Shown piece by piece: positions 5,399-15,533 of a DNA stretch of 38,737 bases. The stretch covers positions 1-38,737 of the forward strand of contig JAGREO010000193.1 of assembly GCA_020446525.1 (NCBI GenBank), written 5' to 3'. Below the pieces are notes generated by a model. It worked only from the letters and a program-made list of their open reading frames with translations. It was not told the DNA's origin and searched no databases. The position numbers and the translations under genes are program-made. This DNA is from Geminicoccaceae bacterium. Its GTDB lineage: Bacteria > Pseudomonadota > Alphaproteobacteria > Geminicoccales > Geminicoccaceae. Position 1 is the stretch's first letter. Each line of letters starts with the position of its first letter.

Positions 5399-7642
5399 AT
5401 GCCTTTCTCGACGTATCAGCGCGCGCGCCTGGGACATGCGGTGATCGAACCGGCGGGGCCGTTCGTCGCCGGATCGTTGCAGCATCTGGTGATCACCTAT
5501 ACCGCCGGACCCTTCGGCATCGACGATACAGGCGCGCTCAAGATCAGTTGGCGCACGGCATCGGACGCGGCGAAGCCGCAGACGAACGATCCCAAGGCCG
5601 CCAATTTCGTGAGTGCCACGGCGAGCAATGGTGCCGGCCTCTCCATCGAGTACAACCGCAACAATATACGCCCCTGGGTCAACACGCTCTTGGTGCGGGC
5701 GACCGGCGGATTCTTGCGGGTCGGCGACACGATCAGCGTCAGGCTCGGCGATCCGGCAGGCGGCTGTCCCGGTTACCGACTGCAGACCGCGGCGGAGCGG
5801 CCGTTCCCCTTCAAGGTCTTCGTCGACGCCTTTGCGACTTATGATTTCGTCGAGCTCGAAGAGAGTCCCGCCGTCGACCTCGTGCCGGGACCGGCGCGCC
5901 GCTTCAAGGCGATCCTGCCGACGCTTCGGCGGACGGGTGACAGGTTCCGCCTCGCCGTGCTCGCCGAAGACCGCTGGGGCAATCCGACGGATGAGGCCAA
6001 GGGCACCTTCCACCTGAAGTGCGACGCGCCGATCGATGGCCTGCCGGAGACGATCACGCTCGGCGACGGCCCGGCGGTGGTGGACGGGCTGTCGTCCGAC
6101 CAAGCGGCCGATCTGCGGGTCGAGGTAACGGACGAGGACGGACGCCCATGCGCGACCTCGAACCCGCTGCGCATCGCCGACGACGCATCGTTGCTGCATT
6201 ATTGGGGCGATCTGCACGGACAGTCCGGCGAAACGGTGGGAGCCGGCACGGCACGTGACTATTTCGCCTTCGCCCGCGACAGGGCGTTTCTCGACATCAC
6301 CGGACATCAGGGCAACGATTTTCAGATCGACGATGCGTTCTGGGCCGAGATCAACCGGCTCGCCGCCGAATTCGACGACCCCGGCAGGTTCACCGCCTTT
6401 CCCTCCTACGAGTGGTCCGGCAACACCGGCATGGGCGGCGACCGCAACGTTTTCTACTGCCAGCAGGACCGGCCGATCTACCGCTCATCGTCGGTACTGC
6501 TCGAGAGTCCGCACGATACCGACCGGCACCATGTGAAGGATCTCTTCGAGTCGCTCGCCGACGAGGAGGCGTTCGTGATCGCCCATGTCGGCGGTCGCTA
6601 CGCCGATCTCGGCGTCGGCCACGACGGCCGAATCGAACGGGCGGTGGAGATCCATTCCTGCTGGGGCACGTTTGAGTGGCTGCTGCACGACGCCCTGGCG
6701 CTAGGGCATCGGGTCGGCATCGTCTGCCACAGCGACGATCACAAGGGCCGACCCGGCGCGGCCTGGCCAGGCGCCGGCACCTTCGGCGCGATCGGCGGCC
6801 TGACCTGCTATCTCATGGAGCGTCTCGACCGCGAGGCGGTGTTCGAGTGTATCCGCAACCGCCGCACCTTTGGCACCACCGGCGCCCGCATCCATGTCGA
6901 TCTGCAGGCTTCCTTCGATGACGGCTGTGAGCGATTTCTCGAAGATCCGGCGCTCCTCCCACCGTCCGAGCCGGCTTCGAGCGAAAAGCAGCGGACGGCC
7001 ACCATGGGGGCCATCGTGCGCACCCGCTCGACGGAGGCCGAAATTACCGTCGAGGTTCTGGGTTCGGCGCCGATCGAGCGGCTGACCTTCTTCGACGGCC
7101 CCAAAGCCGTCGCCACCGTACGCGCCTACGACAAAGCGCAGCTCGGGCGGCGAATCAGAATCCTTTTCGAAGGCGCCGTCTATCGCGGGCGTGGCCGCGA
7201 AGTCGTCTGGCGTGGCTCGGTGCGGCTCAAAGGCGCGCGATTCTTCGACGTGCGGCCGATCAATCTTTTTCGTGCGGACAAGCCTCTCGTTCTCGCCGAC
7301 GACGGCACGCGCGTCGATTTCGACACGGTGACCACCGGCAATTTCTGCGGTTTCGATCTGTGGCTGGAGGAACGCGAACGCGGTGAAATCGAGATCGCCT
7401 CAAACGTGATCGAGCGCCACATCAAGATCGCCGACATCAGCCTCGAGGACATGGTGCTCGATGCCGGCGGACTCGGACGGCGGATGCGGCTCTTTCGTCT
7501 GCCGAACGAGAACACCCGCATGCGTGTGCACGAAACGGTCCGGCTGCCGCTGGAGCAGGGGCGTGACCATGCGCTCTATGTGCGGGTGACACAAGAGGAC
7601 GGGCATCAGGCCTGGACCAGCCCGCTTTACGTGATCGACTGA
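5399..7642 (+). CDS. DUF3604 protein (PHP-like metal-dependent hydrolase fold)
   Basis: This 747-residue protein has an N-terminal beta-rich region (1-260) and then the DUF3604 core. The core starts HYWGDLHGQSGETVGAGTA and contains DITGHQGNDFQ, FPSYEWSGNTGMGGDRNVFY, FVIAHVGGRYADLG, VEIHSCWGTFEW and IVCHSDDHKGRPG. The repeated His and Asp residues (GDLHGQ, HQGND, HVGG, HSDDH) match the metal-binding pattern of PHP-type phosphoesterases. The biochemical function of DUF3604 is not established. There is no signal peptide. The ATG follows a strong AGGGGG site. Its stop is 6 bp from the start of tctA, so the two form an operon, and a link to transported anionic substrates is likely. Confidence 0.87.
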   Translation: MPFSTYQRARLGHAVIEPAGPFVAGSLQHLVITYTAGPFGIDDTGALKISWRTASDAAKPQTNDPKAANFVSATASNGAGLSIEYNRNNIRPWVNTLLVRATGGFLRVGDTISVRLGDPAGGCPGYRLQTAAERPFPFKVFVDAFATYDFVELEESPAVDLVPGPARRFKAILPTLRRTGDRFRLAVLAEDRWGNPTDEAKGTFHLKCDAPIDGLPETITLGDGPAVVDGLSSDQAADLRVEVTDEDGRPCATSNPLRIADDASLLHYWGDLHGQSGETVGAGTARDYFAFARDRAFLDITGHQGNDFQIDDAFWAEINRLAAEFDDPGRFTAFPSYEWSGNTGMGGDRNVFYCQQDRPIYRSSSVLLESPHDTDRHHVKDLFESLADEEAFVIAHVGGRYADLGVGHDGRIERAVEIHSCWGTFEWLLHDALALGHRVGIVCHSDDHKGRPGAAWPGAGTFGAIGGLTCYLMERLDREAVFECIRNRRTFGTTGARIHVDLQASFDDGCERFLEDPALLPPSEPASSEKQRTATMGAIVRTRSTEAEITVEVLGSAPIERLTFFDGPKAVATVRAYDKAQLGRRIRILFEGAVYRGRGREVVWRGSVRLKGARFFDVRPINLFRADKPLVLADDGTRVDFDTVTTGNFCGFDLWLEERERGEIEIASNVIERHIKIADISLEDMVLDAGGLGRRMRLFRLPNENTRMRVHETVRLPLEQGRDHALYVRVTQEDGHQAWTSPLYVID

Positions 7643-7648
7643 GCGTCG

Positions 7649-9148
7649 ATGGCGGAGAACCTGCTGGCAGCACTGCATCTGGTGCTCACCTTCGAGAACC
7701 TGCTCTACGCGGCTCTGGGCATGGCAGTGGGACTGGTGTTCGGCGCCCTGCCCGGCCTGAACGGCAACGTCGCCATCGGGCTCTTGATCCCCTTCACCTA
7801 TTATCTCGACCCGATGGTCGGCATTGTCGCCTTGATGGCGATCGGCAAAGGGGCGAATTTCGGTGGTGCGGTGCCGGCCGTGCTGCTCAACATACCGGGC
7901 ACGCCGGCCGCCACCTTCACCGCAGTCGACGGCTATCAACTGACCAGGGCGGGCAAGGCGAAGAAGGCTCTGCACACGGCGCTCTGGGGCTCGACCTTGG
8001 GCGATCTGTTCAGCGATCTGGTGCTGCTTTTCGTCGCGGCACCGCTGGCGGCCATGGCACTGATGGTCGGGCCGCCCGAATATGCCGCGATCATCCTGTT
8101 TTCGCTCCTGATCGTCGGCACGATGGTCGGCGGCGCTCCGATCAAGGGTCTGCTCTCGGCGGCCTTCGGCCTGCTGCTGGGCACCGTCGGCCGCGACCTC
8201 TACACCATGGAGCCGCGCTTCACCTTCGGGTCGATCAATCTGGACGACGGCATTCCGGTGATCCCCTTGCTGATGGGCCTGCTGGTGGTGTCCGAAGTGT
8301 TCGTGCAGCTTCGCCGTGAAGCCGTCTCACCCGAGGCGATCGAGACGCGCGCGCTGAGGCTCGATCGGGGTGCGGAGCCGCTGCGCATGGCCGATCTCGC
8401 CAGACAGCTTCCGACGATCTTCAAGAGCAGCGCCATCGGGACGTTCGTCGGTGCGGTGCCGGGGCTGGGTGCCACGCTGGGTGCGTTCTTGTGCCATGCC
8501 GAGGCCAAGCGTTCGGCACCGCCGGACGAGCCCGTCGGCCGCGGCTCGCTGCGTGGCGTGGCCGCCGCCGAAGCGGGCAACAGTGCCACCAACGGCTCCA
8601 ACCTCATTCCTCTCGTGACGCTGGGCATTCCGGGCAATGTCGAGGCGGCTCTGGTGCTAGGGGCCTTCATGATCCACGGCATCACACCCGGCCCGTTCCT
8701 GATGCAGCAGCAGGGACCGATGCTCTATGCCATCTTCCTGAGCCTGATCCTGGCCAACGTCCTGTTGCTGGGTATGGGCTTCGCGTTCATCCGCATGGCC
8801 CGTCATGCGCTGAGGATCGACAAGCGTCATCTGCTGCCGGCGATCCTGTTCATGGCTTTCGTCGGCACCTACGCGACCACGCGTCAATTGTTCGACGTCG
8901 GCCTGATGTTCGTCTTCGGCATGCTCGGCTATGCGATGCGGCGGCTGGGCTTCACACCCTTGCCCCTGCTCATCGCCTTTCTTCTCGGACCGCTGTTCGA
9001 GGACGGCGTACGTCGCTCACTGACCCTCTCGGGCGGCAGTTTCTCGATCTTCTTCGAGCGACCGATCGCCATCGGCTTTCTGGCGATCGCGACGCTGGCG
9101 CTGGTGCTGATCGTCCGCCAAACGCTGGAGCGTCGAAGGCGGGCTTGA
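7649..9148 (+). CDS. tctA: tripartite tricarboxylate transporter, large membrane subunit TctA
   Basis: This 499-residue, highly hydrophobic protein has about 11-12 membrane segments and the TctA signatures: VFGALPGLNGNVAIGLLIPF near the N-terminus, LLNIPGTPAATFTAVDGYQL, and GNSATNGSNLIPLVTLGIPG in the second half. TctA is the cation-coupled permease of the TTT family. It needs the small membrane subunit TctB and the periplasmic binding protein TctC. Here tctA follows the DUF3604 gene on the plus strand. tctB and tctC lie on the opposite strand immediately downstream, with only 3 bp between the tctA and tctB stops. TctABC genes are usually co-directional, so this split is unusual. Confidence 0.95.
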   Translation: MAENLLAALHLVLTFENLLYAALGMAVGLVFGALPGLNGNVAIGLLIPFTYYLDPMVGIVALMAIGKGANFGGAVPAVLLNIPGTPAATFTAVDGYQLTRAGKAKKALHTALWGSTLGDLFSDLVLLFVAAPLAAMALMVGPPEYAAIILFSLLIVGTMVGGAPIKGLLSAAFGLLLGTVGRDLYTMEPRFTFGSINLDDGIPVIPLLMGLLVVSEVFVQLRREAVSPEAIETRALRLDRGAEPLRMADLARQLPTIFKSSAIGTFVGAVPGLGATLGAFLCHAEAKRSAPPDEPVGRGSLRGVAAAEAGNSATNGSNLIPLVTLGIPGNVEAALVLGAFMIHGITPGPFLMQQQGPMLYAIFLSLILANVLLLGMGFAFIRMARHALRIDKRHLLPAILFMAFVGTYATTRQLFDVGLMFVFGMLGYAMRRLGFTPLPLLIAFLLGPLFEDGVRRSLTLSGGSFSIFFERPIAIGFLAIATLALVLIVRQTLERRRRA

Positions 9149-9151
9149 GCG

Positions 9152-9628
9152 TCACCCGCCGAGCAGCAGGCGTTCGAGGCTGCTCGGACGGATGACGAGG
9201 CCGAAGCTCTGCTGGAACACCAGCCAGACGACGGCGAGGGTGCCGGCGCTCCAGCCCAGAAGCGGAAGCGGCCGGCGTGCACCCAGAAGCATGAACGAAA
9301 CGATCAGGGCGACGAACCCGCCCAGATAGAAACCCGTGGTGTCGATCGCCAGGGCGAAGGCGCCCCAGACCACTGCGAGAACGAGGATGTGTCCGGGCTC
9401 ACCCCCGCCGGTCTCGACGAAGGGGTCGTCGTCGGCAGGTTGCGACGTTCGATGCAGCGTCGATGCGAGCATGGCGACTGCGAGCACGCCGATCAGGACC
9501 GTATAGAGGTAGGGCAGCATCGCCTGATCGCCGCTGCCGGCGAAGCGGGGCACGAGCCACCACCACGCCAGCGCGGCGAATATGATCAGGGCCGCCGCGA
9601 CCGCCATATCGGTGCTTCGCGCAGGCAC
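9152..9628 (-). CDS. tctB: tripartite tricarboxylate transporter, small membrane subunit TctB
   Basis: This 158-residue protein has four predicted membrane helices in the order expected for TctB: one near the N-terminus (MAVAAALIIFAALAWWWL), a second at LPYLYTVLIGVLAVAML, then a hydrophilic loop (about 62-80), then two closely spaced helices. It should pair with TctA in the inner membrane. The start is GTG 9628, six bases after the tctC stop; ATG 9607 would shorten it by seven residues. It is co-transcribed with tctC and the ComA-like gene and convergent with tctA. Confidence 0.87.
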   Translation of the reverse strand: MPARSTDMAVAAALIIFAALAWWWLVPRFAGSGDQAMLPYLYTVLIGVLAVAMLASTLHRTSQPADDDPFVETGGGEPGHILVLAVVWGAFALAIDTTGFYLGGFVALIVSFMLLGARRPLPLLGWSAGTLAVVWLVFQQSFGLVIRPSSLERLLLGG

Positions 9629-9634
9629 GCCCTT

Positions 9635-10591
9635 CTATTCCTTCAGGTAGTCGCGCAACTCCTGCGCATCCTTGGTGACGCTTTGCAGCACCTCTTCATA
9701 TTCGGCCGGCTCGATCCACTGCGGAGTCAGGTCAATGGCCTTCAGTTTTTCCTGAACCGCCGGTGCTTCCACGGCGGCCTTGAAGGCGGCGCGCAGCTTC
9801 TCGAGCACGTCTGCCGGCGTATCGGCCCTGACGGCATAGCCGTAATAGACGCGGGCGACATAGTCCGCGTCGCGCTGATCGAGGCTCGGCACGTCGGGAT
9901 AGCCGAACTGTGCGAGACCGCCTGGCGTCAGGGTTGCCAGAATCTTCAGGCCGCCTTCACGGGCGGCATGCCAGGCCGAGGTGCCGACACCGGTCTCGGC
10001 GGTTGTCACGTGTCCGCCCAGGATCGCTGCCGAGCCTTCCGCACCGGAACGGAACGGTACGAGACGGATGGTGAGGTCGTGCTTCTTGGCGTAGGCCTCG
10101 ACCACGCGCGACGACCAGAAGGAGCCGCCGTCGGCGAAGGTGATGGGCGTTTCCTTGGCGTAAGCGACCATCTCCTCGAAGGTCGAGAAGGGTGCCGAAG
10201 CAGCGGCGAAGAGGACCCGTTCCTGGGGCATGTAGCCACCGACGATCGACCAGCGCGCCAGATCGAGCGGCTCGCCCTGATAGGCGGCGGTGAACGGCCC
10301 CTCGGTGAGGAAGGAGACCATCGTCTGGCCATCGGCCGGCAAGGCGTCGGTTGCCTTGATGGCGAGCAGACCGCCGGCACCGGGCTTGTTCTCGACCAGA
10401 ACCTTGGTTCCCAGTTGCGTCGCCAGTTCCTCGGCCATGATGCGCGAGGAAGTGTCGGTCATACCGCCGGCGCCGAAGCCGACCATCATGGTCACCGGCC
10501 CGTCGGGGAAACCGGCGGCCATCGCGGGTGTCGCGGTCGACGCCGCCGTCGCGATCGCGGCGGCGAGAGTGAAGAGTGTACGACGCAGCAT
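9635..10591 (-). CDS. tctC: tripartite tricarboxylate transporter substrate-binding protein TctC (Bug family)
   Basis: This 318-residue protein has a Sec signal peptide (1 to about 26, ending ATPAMAA). The Bug/TctC fold follows: FPDGPVTMMVGFGAGGMTD, then the typical VLVENKPGAGGLLAIKA and later ADTPADVLEKLRAAFKAAVE. It is the periplasmic solute receptor that feeds TctA/TctB. Bug proteins bind small carboxylates and related anions. The ligand cannot be deduced, but the ComA-like neighbour hints at a sulfonated or phosphorylated acid. ATG 10591 follows a good GGGAGG site. The gene begins 20 bp after the ComA-like stop, in one operon with tctB. Confidence 0.93.
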   Translation of the reverse strand: MLRRTLFTLAAAIATAASTATPAMAAGFPDGPVTMMVGFGAGGMTDTSSRIMAEELATQLGTKVLVENKPGAGGLLAIKATDALPADGQTMVSFLTEGPFTAAYQGEPLDLARWSIVGGYMPQERVLFAAASAPFSTFEEMVAYAKETPITFADGGSFWSSRVVEAYAKKHDLTIRLVPFRSGAEGSAAILGGHVTTAETGVGTSAWHAAREGGLKILATLTPGGLAQFGYPDVPSLDQRDADYVARVYYGYAVRADTPADVLEKLRAAFKAAVEAPAVQEKLKAIDLTPQWIEPAEYEEVLQSVTKDAQELRDYLKE

Positions 10592-10611
10592 GATAATCCT
10601 CCCTGGGTGGT

Positions 10612-11418
10612 TCATTCGCGCGGTGTGCGCTCTTTGGGCCCGACGACGCCGAGACCGCAGCGCAAGGCCTCGGTCGCCAGCAGTTCCTCCGGCTTGACGT
10701 TGGCGAGATTGACCTCGGGGCCGAGTTCGAGGATAAGCAGCTTCTTCAGGTCTTCGACCATCGAGAGCGTTGTACCGCTGATCCAGGGTCCCGGCAGCTC
10801 GATCATGACGCGGCGCATGTCGAGCTCGGCGGTGATCCGTCGCAGCATCGAGGTCGCGATCGCGCCGTCCTCGACCAGTTCGGCCGCTTCGATCAGGACC
10901 AACTCGGCGCCGGCCTCGAAGCAGACGTGCGCCTGAGCGATCAGCCGGGCGACGTCCGTTTTCTCGTCCTTGGACCCCACCTCGCCCATGACCGCGAGGC
11001 CCGCATCGGTGGCCTCGCGAACGAGCGACGCACGTTCCTGGTCGTCGATCGGCAGACAATTGTCGGAGATCTCGATCGTCGCGAAACCGAGCCTCGTGGC
11101 CTCGGTGAAGAACCGGCCCAGCGCCTTGCGACCGTGGTTCGCCAGCACATATTCCGCGAACTGGCCGCCGATGAAGGGGCGCACGGCGTGCCGTCGATAG
11201 AGATCGAGCTTGGCCGCCAACTGATCCGGCGGATAGAGGCGAGCCGTGCCGGTGACGATCTTGGCGAAATCGGCATAGGCTCCGGCCAGCGCCATCAGCC
11301 CGTCGACCGCACCCACGGTCATGCCCCAGTCGGCGATCATCGTCATGCCGGACCGGCGAGGCTTGGCCGTCGAGCGTGTGGGCGGCAGGTCGAGAAAGCC
11401 GAAGGGTGCGGACGACAA
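10612..11418 (-). CDS. ComA-like (phosphosulfolactate synthase family) protein
   Basis: This 268-residue TIM-barrel protein matches the ComA family along its length. It has SGMTMIADWGM near the N-terminus, DFAKIVTGTARLYPP, KLDLYRRHAVRPFIGGQF, FATIEISDNCLPID, GLAVMGEVGSKDEKTD, and a C-terminal NLANVKPEELLATEALRCG. Classical ComA adds sulfite to phosphoenolpyruvate to make (R)-phosphosulfolactate for coenzyme M or, in Bacillus, for spore sulfolactate. Here some positions I remember as conserved differ: IEAAELVEDG where archaeal proteins have an EARES-type segment. The reaction may therefore differ. Translation probably starts at TTG 11418, which has a perfect AGGAGG site. It heads the comA-like/tctC/tctB operon. 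Confidence 0.82.
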   Translation of the reverse strand: MSSAPFGFLDLPPTRSTAKPRRSGMTMIADWGMTVGAVDGLMALAGAYADFAKIVTGTARLYPPDQLAAKLDLYRRHAVRPFIGGQFAEYVLANHGRKALGRFFTEATRLGFATIEISDNCLPIDDQERASLVREATDAGLAVMGEVGSKDEKTDVARLIAQAHVCFEAGAELVLIEAAELVEDGAIATSMLRRITAELDMRRVMIELPGPWISGTTLSMVEDLKKLLILELGPEVNLANVKPEELLATEALRCGLGVVGPKERTPRE

Positions 11419-11651
11419 GAGCGCCTCCTGTCTTTTTGCGGGATGGCGGCGCCTCGCAACCTAGCTCGATGCGCGACGGGCGCATAGCACGATCTTGCAT
11501 GGCACGGCGTTCGGGCTGGGGCGGCGATCGCCGGATGGTGATGTCGAAGACGAACCCGACGCCGCCTCTGAAGGTTGGCCCCGCCGGTCACGTGCGCGAT
11601 AGTCATCTTGTGCGACGCGATCGGCGTGCCGCACGAACAGAGGGAACGGTC
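11419..11651. other. divergent intergenic region between the ComA-like and lectin-like genes
   Basis: These 233 bp drive two divergent genes. The minus side carries the AGGAGG ribosome-binding site of the TTG-initiated ComA-like gene. A dyad ATGCGC-GACGG-GCGCAT at 11469-11485 could be an operator for that operon. I see no convincing sigma-70 or sigma-54 site. Confidence 0.35.
11469..11485. promoter_or_regulatory. dyad symmetry upstream of the ComA-like/tctC/tctB operon
   Basis: ATGCGC and GCGCAT flank a 5-base spacer, about 50 bp upstream of the TTG start. It could be the binding site of a dimeric repressor; no regulator gene is adjacent. Confidence 0.25.
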
Positions 11652-12308
11652 ATGTCGCGAAGAGACATCTTGCGTCGTCTGACACCCGTGGCCTGTATCG
11701 CGATGGCTCTCGCGCCGGCCGTAGCGCAAGCCCAGCAGCAGCATCCGATGGGCTTTTTCGTGACCAGCGTAGGGCTCGGTGACGGGGCCAATCTGGGCGG
11801 GCTCGAGGGTGCCGACACGCATTGTGAGGCGCTGGCCGAGGCGGCCGGCGCAGGCGGGCGCGACTGGCGCGCCTATCTCTCGACCGAAAAGGACGGTGCG
11901 CGCGGAGAATCGGCCCGCGAGCGGATCGGCCTCGGTCCCTGGTACAATGCCCGGGGCGAACTCGTCGCCGCCGATCTCGATCAACTCCACCTGAATCCGA
12001 ACATCGTGCTGCGTACGGCGCTCGACGAGAACGGCCAGCCGGTCAAGGGGCGTGGCTCCAGCCCCAACGAGCACGACATCCTCACCGGTACGCAGGAGGA
12101 TGGCACGGCATACTTCCCCGACGAGCAGGATCACACCTGCAACAATTGGACCTCGAACGGCGATGGCTCGGCTCAGGTCGGGCATCACGATCGGCACGGC
12201 GGTGGAAACACGTCGTGGAACTCCGCCCATGCCAGTCGCGGCTGCAGCGCGGAGAACCTCAAGAGCACCGGCGGCAACGGCTATTTCTACTGTTTTGCGG
12301 CTGATTGA
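11652..12308 (+). CDS. secreted DUF1554-like (C-type-lectin-like) protein
   Basis: This 218-residue protein has a Sec signal peptide (1 to about 26, ending APAVAQAQ). The mature part shows the pattern of the DUF1554 / collagen-XVIII-like lectin fold: HCEALAEAAGAGGRDWRAYL, RIGLGPWYNARGELVA, HDILTGTQEDGTA, HTCNNWTS, VGHHDRHGG, WNSAHASRGCS, and a final FYCFA. Cysteines at HCEAL, HTCNN, RGCS and FYCF fit two conserved disulfides. Such proteins are exported and often of unknown role; carbohydrate or matrix binding is an inference from the fold. ATG 11652 has a GAGGGAA site. It diverges from the ComA-like gene and is followed by a gene-poor 510-bp stretch. Confidence 0.8.
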   Translation: MSRRDILRRLTPVACIAMALAPAVAQAQQQHPMGFFVTSVGLGDGANLGGLEGADTHCEALAEAAGAGGRDWRAYLSTEKDGARGESARERIGLGPWYNARGELVAADLDQLHLNPNIVLRTALDENGQPVKGRGSSPNEHDILTGTQEDGTAYFPDEQDHTCNNWTSNGDGSAQVGHHDRHGGGNTSWNSAHASRGCSAENLKSTGGNGYFYCFAAD

Positions 12309-12381
12309 GAGGCAGGCGGAGGAACGGGCTCGCGTCGATCGCGGGCTCCCCGCCATACCGCGCGTGCCGAGAAGGACTGTA

Positions 12382-12425
12382 GAAACGAAAGACCCCGCCG
12401 GCGCTCTTGCGACATCGGCGGGGTC
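12382..12425 (-). terminator. rho-independent terminator-like hairpin reading leftward
   Basis: GACCCCGCCG (12391-12400) and CGGCGGGGTC (12416-12425) pair perfectly over 10 bp around a 15-base loop. On the minus strand the stem is followed by TTTCGTTTC, a U-rich tail; on the plus strand it is followed by TGGTG. It therefore fits a leftward transcript better than the lectin-like gene. Confidence 0.6.
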
Positions 12426-12671
12426 TGGTGCCTATCGGCTTTGTCCGGATGAACCGGTCAAGTGGGTGTTCACACACCCATGCAACTCAAATTGTCGGTT
12501 TTCCGTGCCGACGCCGGCACGTCGGTCCCACGCAGGCTCAGGACCGTATCGGATGATTGGGCGGCAGGGTCTCCATCTTCACCTCACATGAAGCAGATGA
12601 ACAGTAGCCCACAAGTGCACCCGCACCTGCGGTGAACCCATCCTCGCACCTCCGAAGTTGTTTGCGAAGAC
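12391..12671 (-). ncRNA. candidate small transcript opposite the polA leader
   Basis: A predicted promoter, a structured body with two hairpins, and a terminator outline a transcript of about 270-290 nt on the minus strand. It contains a 20-codon frame with an excellent ribosome-binding site, so it could be a dual-function RNA. I do not recognise a known RNA family (not tRNA; no match that I can see to 6S, SRP or tmRNA). The start point is inferred only from the -10 position. Confidence 0.3.
12579..12641 (-). CDS. possible 20-residue peptide within the candidate small transcript
   Basis: ATG 12641 is preceded by GGAGG with 7-base spacing and opens a 20-codon frame, MGSPQVRVHLWATVHLLHVR. The stop overlaps GAGGTGAAG, which in turn precedes a second ATG (12576) opening a 12-codon frame ending at 12538. 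The ribosome-binding sites are better than at many real genes here, but the peptides have no recognisable features. Treat this as a hypothesis. Confidence 0.25.
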   Translation of the reverse strand: MGSPQVRVHLWATVHLLHVR

Positions 12672-12677
12672 TAATTG

Positions 12678-12706
12678 GATATGCGCTCGCTCGATTGTGG
12701 AGTCAA
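12678..12706 (-). promoter_or_regulatory. possible sigma-70 promoter reading leftward from the polA leader
   Basis: On the minus strand TTGACT (12706-12701) is followed after 17 bases by CATATC (12683-12678). The -35 element is strong and the -10 weak (3 of 6). It sits 25-50 bp upstream of the GGAGG site of the 20-codon frame. Confidence 0.35.
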
Positions 12707-12818
12707 CCTTCATGCAAGATTTTTTGATCGGCCGATCGGCGGGGGGACGGGCGCGGCTTGGTGATCGCTCTCGCCGGGGGAGGGTGCTAGGTTCGGTGCT
12801 CCACGAGCGCGAGTTCGC

Positions 12819-15533
12819 ATGAGCACGACCACCAGAAAACTGATCCTCGTCGACGGTTCCGGCTATATCTTCCGCGCCTTTTTCGCCCTGCCACCGATGA
12901 CCCGGCCGGACGGGACGCCGGTCAATGCGGTCTTCGGCTTCTCCGCCATGCTGTTCAAGCTGATGCAGGAACGGGCGGGCGACGACATGATCGTCGTATT
13001 CGATGCCGGTCGGGTGAGCTTTCGCAACGAACTCTATGCCGATTACAAGGCCAACCGGACCGATCCGCCGGAGGAGCTCGTGCCGCAATTCGCTCTGGTG
13101 CGTGATGCCGGGCGTGCGTTCGGCATGCCGGTGGTCGAAACTCCGGGGCTCGAGGCCGACGATCTGATCGCTTCCTATGCCCGAGCCGCCCGTGCCGAGG
13201 GACGGGAGGTGTGTATCGTCTCGTCCGACAAGGATCTGATGCAGTTGGTCGGTGACGGCATCTCGATGTGGGATCCGATGAAGAGCCGGGACATCGGGGC
13301 CGCCGAAGTGGTCGAGCGGTTCGGTGTCGGGCCCGAGCTGGTTGCGGATTGCCTGGCGCTGGCCGGCGACACGTCGGACAACGTGCCGGGAGTGCCCGGA
13401 ATCGGGATCAAGACCGCGGCGCAACTGCTCGTGGAATACGGTTCGCTCGAGAAGCTCCTGGGCAACGCGGCGCAGATCAAGCAGCCCAAGCGGCGGGAGA
13501 GTCTGCTCGCCCATGCCGACACGGCACGCCTGTCGCGCCGGCTGGTCGCCCTGCGCGAGGATGCCGAGCTGCCGATCCCGCTCGCCGATGTGGCCCGCAG
13601 GGAGCCGGATCCGGCGGTGCTGCTGGCGTTCCTGCAGGAGAACGACTTCAAGAATCTCGTCGGCCGGATCGAGCAGGTGGCCGATCACGCCGAGGTCATG
13701 CGTCAGGAGACGGTGGACGCACCGCGCTACGAGGCGATGACCGATCTCGCCGCACTCGACCGCCTGATCGGGCGTGCGAAGGCACTGGGTCGTCTTGCGA
13801 TCGACACGGAGACGGATTCGTTGCGCATCCGTTCGGCGAACCTCGCCGGCATCTGTCTTTGCGTGGAAGAGGGTGAAGGATTCTACCTGCCGCTCGGCCA
13901 TGTCGACGAGTTCGGCCACAAGGTGCCGGATCAGCTCGATCTCGAGACGGTGCTGGCGCGGTTGCGCCCGCTGCTGGCCGACCCGGCGGTGCTCAAGATC
14001 GGCCACAACATCAAATATGACTGCGGTGTTTTGGATAAGTACGACGTGCGGGTGACGCCGATCGACGACACCATGTTGCTCTCCTACGTGCTCGACGGTG
14101 CGAGCCATGGCCACGGCATGGACGAACTGGCCGAGCGTCATCTTCAGCATCACGCAATCAGTTACGAGAGCGTCTGCGGCAAGGGTGCAAAGCAGATCCC
14201 GTTCACCCAGGCACCCATCGATCGCTGCGCCATCTATGCGGCCGAGGATGCCGAGGTGACGTTGCGCCTGTGGAAGCTGTTCCGACGGCGGTTGACCGAG
14301 GAGCACATGGCGACGCTCTACGAGACGGTCGAGCGGCCGCTGGTGCCGATCATCGCGGCGATGGAACTGGCCGGCATCGCCGTCGACCGAAGCGTCTTGC
14401 AGAACCTCTCCTCGGTGTTCGGGCAAAAGATGGTGGCACTCGAGGAAGAAGCGATCAAGCTCGTCGGGCACACCTTCAACATCGGCTCGCCCAAGCAGTT
14501 GGGCGAGGTGCTGCACGGCGAGATGGGGATCGGCGGCGGCAAGAAGACCAAGACCGGCTCCTATGCGACCGGTGCCGACGTCCTCGAGGAGTTGGCTCTG
14601 CAGGGCCATGCGCTGCCGAGAGTGGTGCTGGACTGGCGGCAGTTGCAAAAGCTGACCCGGACCTACACCGAGGCCCTGACCGAAGAGATCGACGCTTCGA
14701 CGGGCCGCATCCACACCTCCTATGCGATGGCGTCGACCTCCACCGGACGCCTGTCCTCGACCGAGCCGAACCTGCAGAACATCCCGATCCGCACCGAAGA
14801 AGGACGACGCATCCGAACGGCGTTCGTCGCAGAGCCGGGCAACGTCCTGGTGTCGGCCGACTATTCACAGATCGAATTACGTGTCCTCGCGCACATGGCC
14901 GACATCGGAGCGTTGAAGGAGGCCTTCGCCAGGGACACCGACATCCACGCCGTCACCGCAGCGAAGATGTTCAAGCGGCCGGTGGAAGAAGTAGGCTCCG
15001 ATCTCAGGCGATCGGCCAAGATGATCAATTACGGCATCATCTACGGCATCGGCGCCTTCGGACTGGGGCAGAGGCTGGGTATCCCGCAAAAGGAGGCGAA
15101 AGCGTTCATCGACGCCTATTTCGACGAATATCCGGGCGTACGCGACTATATGGAGTCGACCAAGGCGAAGGCGCGGGAGCAGGGTTTCGTAACGACCCTG
15201 TTCGGCCGGCGCTGCCACGTTCCGGAGATCAACGCGAAATTGCCGGCGCGACGTTCCTATGCCGAGAGGCAGGCGATCAACGCGCCGATCCAGGGTTCGG
15301 CCGCGGACATCATGAAGCGGGCGATGATCCGGGTGGATCGGGCGCTCGAACGGCAGGAGCTGGCGAGCCGGATGCTGCTGCAGGTGCACGACGAACTCGT
15401 GCTGGAAGTGCCCGAGGGCGAGATCGAATCGGTGACCCTGCTGTTGCGGGATACGATGGCGGCGGCAGCCGAGCTCACGGTGCCGCTGGTCGTGGACGTC
15501 GGTTTCGGGCCGAACTGGGACGCGGCACACTGA
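12819..15533 (+). CDS. polA: DNA polymerase I
   Basis: This 904-residue protein has all three PolA domains. The 5' nuclease is about 1-290 (LVDGSGYIFRAFFALPP, YKANRTDPPEEL, SSDKDLMQL). The 3'-5' exonuclease is about 300-500 and keeps its acidic residues in IDTETDSLR and in YAAEDAEVTLRLW, so proofreading looks intact. The polymerase domain has motif A DYSQIELRVLAHMAD, motif B RRSAKMINYGIIYGI and motif C LQVHDELVLEVPE. It fills gaps in DNA repair and removes Okazaki primers. Full length for the family. Its last 59 bp overlap the 3' end of the flippase gene on the other strand. Confidence 0.98.
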   Translation: MSTTTRKLILVDGSGYIFRAFFALPPMTRPDGTPVNAVFGFSAMLFKLMQERAGDDMIVVFDAGRVSFRNELYADYKANRTDPPEELVPQFALVRDAGRAFGMPVVETPGLEADDLIASYARAARAEGREVCIVSSDKDLMQLVGDGISMWDPMKSRDIGAAEVVERFGVGPELVADCLALAGDTSDNVPGVPGIGIKTAAQLLVEYGSLEKLLGNAAQIKQPKRRESLLAHADTARLSRRLVALREDAELPIPLADVARREPDPAVLLAFLQENDFKNLVGRIEQVADHAEVMRQETVDAPRYEAMTDLAALDRLIGRAKALGRLAIDTETDSLRIRSANLAGICLCVEEGEGFYLPLGHVDEFGHKVPDQLDLETVLARLRPLLADPAVLKIGHNIKYDCGVLDKYDVRVTPIDDTMLLSYVLDGASHGHGMDELAERHLQHHAISYESVCGKGAKQIPFTQAPIDRCAIYAAEDAEVTLRLWKLFRRRLTEEHMATLYETVERPLVPIIAAMELAGIAVDRSVLQNLSSVFGQKMVALEEEAIKLVGHTFNIGSPKQLGEVLHGEMGIGGGKKTKTGSYATGADVLEELALQGHALPRVVLDWRQLQKLTRTYTEALTEEIDASTGRIHTSYAMASTSTGRLSSTEPNLQNIPIRTEEGRRIRTAFVAEPGNVLVSADYSQIELRVLAHMADIGALKEAFARDTDIHAVTAAKMFKRPVEEVGSDLRRSAKMINYGIIYGIGAFGLGQRLGIPQKEAKAFIDAYFDEYPGVRDYMESTKAKAREQGFVTTLFGRRCHVPEINAKLPARRSYAERQAINAPIQGSAADIMKRAMIRVDRALERQELASRMLLQVHDELVLEVPEGEIESVTLLLRDTMAAAAELTVPLVVDVGFGPNWDAAH

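Follow-up and report, generated by a model that had tools for sequence, protein, structure and literature searches.

Sequence signals of a putative stand-alone small RNA gene divergent from polA in a Geminicoccaceae bacterium

The window analysed here, a stretch of 38,737 nucleotides, belongs to the draft assembly of a Geminicoccaceae bacterium (3.77 Mb), in which it forms contig G000:C8. The candidate region is a 510-bp gap between two plus-strand genes, one encoding a DUF1554-like secreted protein and the other polA (Table 1). The signals that had been predicted on the minus strand of this gap (promoter, Shine-Dalgarno site, reading frames, hairpins and terminator) were all found in place when the sequence was read directly. 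The nearest matches of the polA gene were its counterparts in a draft genome of Geminicoccaceae and in those of other Alphaproteobacteria. The DUF1554-like protein gave a weak match to Pfam PF07588 (E = 5.8e-5, below the cut-off). The latter protein is patchily distributed, with relatives of 57–63% identity in 4 of 30 other genomes of the family. The DNA downstream of these four copies is unrelated, and an RNA that travels with the DUF1554-like gene was rejected on this ground. Gene context is given by a codon-score caller only, which replaced a poor one relying on codon-position G+C and which itself overlooks some genes, such as a TctC-type frame. Elsewhere in the window (5399–11500), a DUF3604 protein gene adjoins a TctA-type transporter gene, and the TctC-type frame, which would encode a receptor, is on the other strand. 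The next called minus-strand gene (10612–11418) lies about 1 kb past the terminator and is separated from it by the plus-strand DUF1554-like gene, in agreement with the original prediction that no larger gene follows. A leader-peptide RNA, one of the two roles offered by that prediction, is not upheld, as there is no downstream minus-strand gene to be led.

Table 1. Positions in the window of the candidate region's features and of the two flanking genes.
Feature	Position	Strand	Details or basis
DUF1554-like secreted protein gene	11652..12308	+	start set at signal-peptide-like ATG
Intrinsic terminator	12380..12426	-	11-bp stem 12426-12390, tail TTCGTTTCTA
Internal hairpins of predicted RNA	12437..12633 (approximate)	-	MFE and centroid folds
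ORF2, 12 codons, METLPPNHPIRS, very weak candidate	12538..12576	-	sequence; too short to test
ORF1, 20 codons, MGSPQVRVHLWATVHLLHVR, weak candidate	12579..12641	-	sequence
Shine-Dalgarno GGAGG (SD1)	12649..12653	-	7 nt before ATG 12641
Sigma-70-type promoter GTTGAC-N17-GCATAT	12679..12707	-	9/12 to CTTGAC-N17-CTATAT
polA	12819..15533	+	Pfam; putative -10 TAGGTT at 12788-12793

The minus-strand promoter, whose -35 hexamer reads TTGACT (12706–12701), has the exact spacing of the alphaproteobacterial consensus and three mismatches to it. According to the available text of a study of Sinorhizobium meliloti, this consensus occurs upstream of 101 sRNA candidates (PMC2873474), and an alphaproteobacterial sRNA screen, as far as its available text describes, allowed up to four mismatches to it (PMC2573895). 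We searched with the pattern CTTGAC-N(16-18)-CTATAT at 9 of 12 positions, and the promoter was the only such match on either strand of 12300–12830 (531 bp). A promoter of this quality was present in 7.2% of 2000 shuffles, and the whole window contains 13. The promoter sits in a local dip in G+C content (0.47, versus 0.67 for the window). Taken alone, it is an unremarkable signal of moderate weight (p = 0.07), with a weak -10 element. From the promoter spacing, transcription would be expected to start at about position 12672. A stock scan using the E. coli consensus and loops of up to 8 nt detected neither promoter nor terminator, because the -10 matches TATAAT at only 3 of 6 positions and the loop of the terminator, at 15 nt, exceeds that limit.

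The terminator is the more distinctive of the two signals when judged against the genome itself. Its stem is uninterrupted over 11 bp and is followed by a U-rich tail (TTCGTTTC), and a strand-specific scan found it to be the sole such site in the window. Both strands were then scanned in a 352,067-bp sample made up of the window and 20 other stretches of the same genome (about 9% of the assembly), which yielded 22 terminator-like sites, three of them with a stem of at least 11 bp. In Markov-resampled sequence, 0.1 sites with stems of at least 11 bp were expected, compared with 11.2 at a 7-bp stem, so that only long stems are informative. The 62-nt terminator stretch also folds far better than expected (z = -4.18), with equally good folds in none of 200 shuffles. 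One of the two other long-stem sites lies 43 nt after a co-oriented called gene, and the second has none directly ahead of it; the terminator in the gap is preceded by no minus-strand gene.

The two signals were also examined as a pair. A co-oriented promoter 40–500 nt upstream was found for 2 of the 22 terminator-like sites, and the second of these pairs (L072, 523–545) falls within a called gene, leaving the candidate as the sole intergenic pair in 352 kb. Pairs with a stem of at least 11 bp numbered one in the sample and none in eight resampled sets, while for stems of at least 7 bp two were observed versus 0.5 per resampled set. An orphan promoter and terminator, co-oriented and 40–500 bp apart, receive the top transcription score in the alphaproteobacterial sRNA screen, in the available text of that work (PMC2573895), and the candidate has its own promoter and a co-oriented terminator within this range. 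It is also intergenic and antisense to both flanking genes (the type 1 layout), and a promoter–terminator pair antisense to both neighbours is the usual signature of a trans-encoded sRNA gene.

We therefore favour, with a probability of roughly 55%, a stand-alone intergenic transcription unit on the minus strand (12707–12380), likely a lineage-specific trans-acting sRNA in which the reading frames are incidental. RNA polymerase would initiate near 12672 at a sigma-70 promoter divergent from polA, and the transcript, of about 290 nt with several hairpins, would end at the 11-bp intrinsic terminator. Such an RNA may base-pair in trans through putative contact sites in the unpaired linkers that join its hairpins. 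The sequence itself shows the signals, how rare they are, and the strand bias of the region described below; that the RNA exists, where it begins and ends, and how it acts are inferred.

The principal rival, which we regard as somewhat unlikely, dispenses with the minus-strand transcript: the GC-rich stem would close the plus-strand DUF1554-like mRNA, as a 3'-end terminator or RNase barrier, and the promoter and frames would be there by chance. A distance of 81 nt from the DUF1554-like stop codon to the stem fits this proposal, the stem can form on either strand, and the chance levels of the promoter (p = 0.07) and of the frames (p = 0.02–0.2) are compatible with it. However, on the plus side the stem is followed by GGTGCC, which is not U-rich; the U-rich tail is on the minus side only, and the scan scores the minus strand alone. 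Folding of the remaining region also argues against it. The 299-nt minus-strand RNA has a predicted energy of -126.9 kcal/mol (z = -3.09, with 1 of 200 shuffles as good), and with the terminator left out (12430–12680) the z-score is -1.84 for the minus strand versus -0.22 for the plus strand. Most of the excess stability is thus due to the terminator, with a mild preference for the minus strand elsewhere. The predicted hairpins comprise a 10-bp stem within ORF1, a hairpin holding the ORF2 ribosome site (SD2), and the two short stem-loops GTGCCG-GCGT-CGGCAC and GGGTGT-GTGA-ACACCC.

We assessed whether the two tiny frames are more than incidental. The ATG of ORF2 (12576) is preceded by GAGGTGAAG, and SD2 overlaps the ORF1 stop codon and falls in its hairpin. 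An ATG frame of at least 20 codons led by GGAGG occurred in 1.65% of shuffles, and two ATG frames of at least 12 codons with a 4-base Shine-Dalgarno site in 3.4%, rising to 21.5% when GTG and TTG starts were admitted. The codon score of ORF1 under the genome's own codon model (-4.31) is equalled by 52.5% of random open 60-mers, although the test is weak at 20 codons because the first 20 codons score lower than ORF1 in 24% of 205 called genes. A search for relatives of the ORF1 peptide in the 30 other family genomes gave none beyond one match at the level of chance (47% identity, E = 0.13). A dual-function or small-protein mRNA, in which ORF1 translation would open the hairpin hiding the ORF2 ribosome site and so couple two micro-peptides, would account for the ideally spaced GGAGG (p = 0.0165), for the tight overlap of ORF1 stop, SD2 and second ATG, and for the nearly complete pairing of SD2 with its AUG (mean unpaired probability 0.19 in the 290-nt fold). 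Yet SD1 is itself mostly paired (0.30), the ORF1 codon score lies at the random median, and the peptide is without a relative. We consider this reading distinctly unlikely. The overlap is a tidy coupling layout and nothing beyond layout, the coding claims for both frames are weak, and the frames are most likely incidental. The original prediction thus holds up in part: a stand-alone minus-strand transcript is supported by the signal statistics and by strand-biased folding, while its dual-function or leader-peptide part finds no support, given the random-like ORF1 codons and the missing peptide relative.

Only a slim chance is left for a relic that has lost its downstream partner, be it a leader, an attenuator or what remains of the end of a decayed minus-strand gene. 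The region does resemble a leader (ribosome site, short frame with three codons for His and one for Trp, hairpins and terminator, and no gene after). However, none of eight stop-to-stop frames across it (48–107 residues) matched Pfam, so that a pseudogene of a minus-strand protein was rejected; there is no run of codons for a single amino acid, the RNA folds without a clear competing antiterminator, and no similar leader lies upstream of polA in any relative.

The location of the candidate had been described as the polA leader. Across the family, a TA[GC]nn[TAC] box lies 6–8 nt before a start codon at 19 of 29 polA loci, compared with 1.0 expected from shuffles, and a stricter form of the box at 12 loci versus 0.025 expected, which suggests that the box is a -10 element and that polA mRNA may be leaderless in much of Geminicoccaceae. 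The polA gene of the window was counted among the 29 and is one of the 10 misses, as its TAGGTT lies 25 nt from the ATG, so that its leader would be about 20 nt. With the putative -10 placed there, the minus-strand RNA would be located upstream of where polA transcription putatively starts and would run in the opposite direction, and the description as a polA leader is not supported. Between the minus-strand promoter and polA, beside a plus-strand T run, there is also a perfect 12-bp palindrome (GATCGGCCGATC, 12726–12737), possibly an operator or else a product of chance. A more elaborate proposal, that of a genus-private dual-function RNA in which ORF1 translation feeds ORF2 and which is divergent from polA under GATCGGCCGATC as a shared palindromic operator, appears very unlikely.

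Conservation in close relatives, which the original prediction had made a test of the RNA, was not observed: none of the relatives has a related region upstream of polA, and this holds too for the one congeneric genome searched, whose PolA is 75% identical and which has a different gene upstream of polA. The gene upstream of polA likewise differs in ten relatives inspected. No significant blastn or nhmmer match was found upstream of 36 other polA loci, a number that includes duplicates (one genome is present in two collections) and is confined to loci with PolA at least 54% identical, with L001, L020 and L052 left out; a conserved RNA at polA was rejected on this basis. Searches with the RNA itself revealed no true homologue in 39 relatives or in the 30 other family genomes, the four short DNA matches in relatives (20–31 nt, E = 0.003–0.008) being scattered over the query. 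Among 384 other genomes of the class there was no true relative either. Two of these genomes, with E = 2e-4 and 3e-4, matched 28–32 nt around the start of ORF2, and both matches were rejected as RNA relatives because they lie within open frames reading VKIETL and were hence taken as coding. From their sequence, we take one of these frames to be dehydrogenase-like and the other RimP-like. The genome holds no paralogue of the candidate (next best E = 0.08), none of 4227 Rfam 15 families matched the window at the gathering score, and at a relaxed threshold the best hit was a microRNA taken as chance (E = 4.5). Plasmids and phages gave no relative, nor did viral contigs by exact 24-mer. Sequence conservation, a supporting criterion for sRNAs, is thus absent from the genomes searched, which counts against a broad role and not against the RNA's existence, and a fast-evolving sRNA could be missed because PolA of the nearest genome is only 75% identical.

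The favoured sRNA reading has its closest parallels in S. meliloti, whose trans-encoded sRNAs share the intergenic type 1 layout, the sigma-70 N17 consensus, a Rho-independent terminator and structured RNA, in the available text of two studies (PMC2873474, PMC2573895). At about 290 nt the candidate is longer than the 53–259 nt given there for these sRNAs (PMC2873474), and it differs from them in being known here from sequence signals alone. It is also conserved in none of the genomes searched, whereas in the first S. meliloti list of 2008, so far as the available text reports, all but one of the candidates are conserved in a related species. In S. meliloti, the sRNA rnTrpL derives from an attenuator and encodes in addition a leader peptide of 14 residues, peTrpL (PMC7298713). 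The candidate resembles it as a short RNA with an intrinsic terminator and a tiny frame, of which RNA and peptide both could act. However, rnTrpL precedes trpE(G) and has its frame at the RNA 5' end, whereas no gene follows the candidate and ORF1, whose coding is unsupported, would begin about 31 nt from the 5' end, behind a strong Shine-Dalgarno site. In E. coli, the sRNA Spot 42 (spf), of about 109 nt, adjoins polA on its downstream side. The candidate is likewise beside polA, but upstream of it and about 290 nt long, and the shared adjacency is most likely coincidental because the candidate has no Rfam match. EcpR1 was ruled out as a relative, since the available text places it by divK-pleD and not by polA (PMC4414408).

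If confirmed, the candidate would give Geminicoccaceae a small RNA gene; for this family, one full-text literature search returned no paper that also contained 'small RNA'. It is fairly ordinary and modest in its implications and settles no long-standing question, and it shows that an orphan terminator is a useful pointer to RNA genes in a genome such as this one, where canonical terminators are few. Elsewhere in the same genome (L076, 2283–2355, on contig C172), the sample contains a terminator-like stem longer than any other (12 bp, with six U). No called gene of the same orientation immediately precedes it and Rfam gave no match, and it is a candidate for another orphan RNA or for a missed gene.
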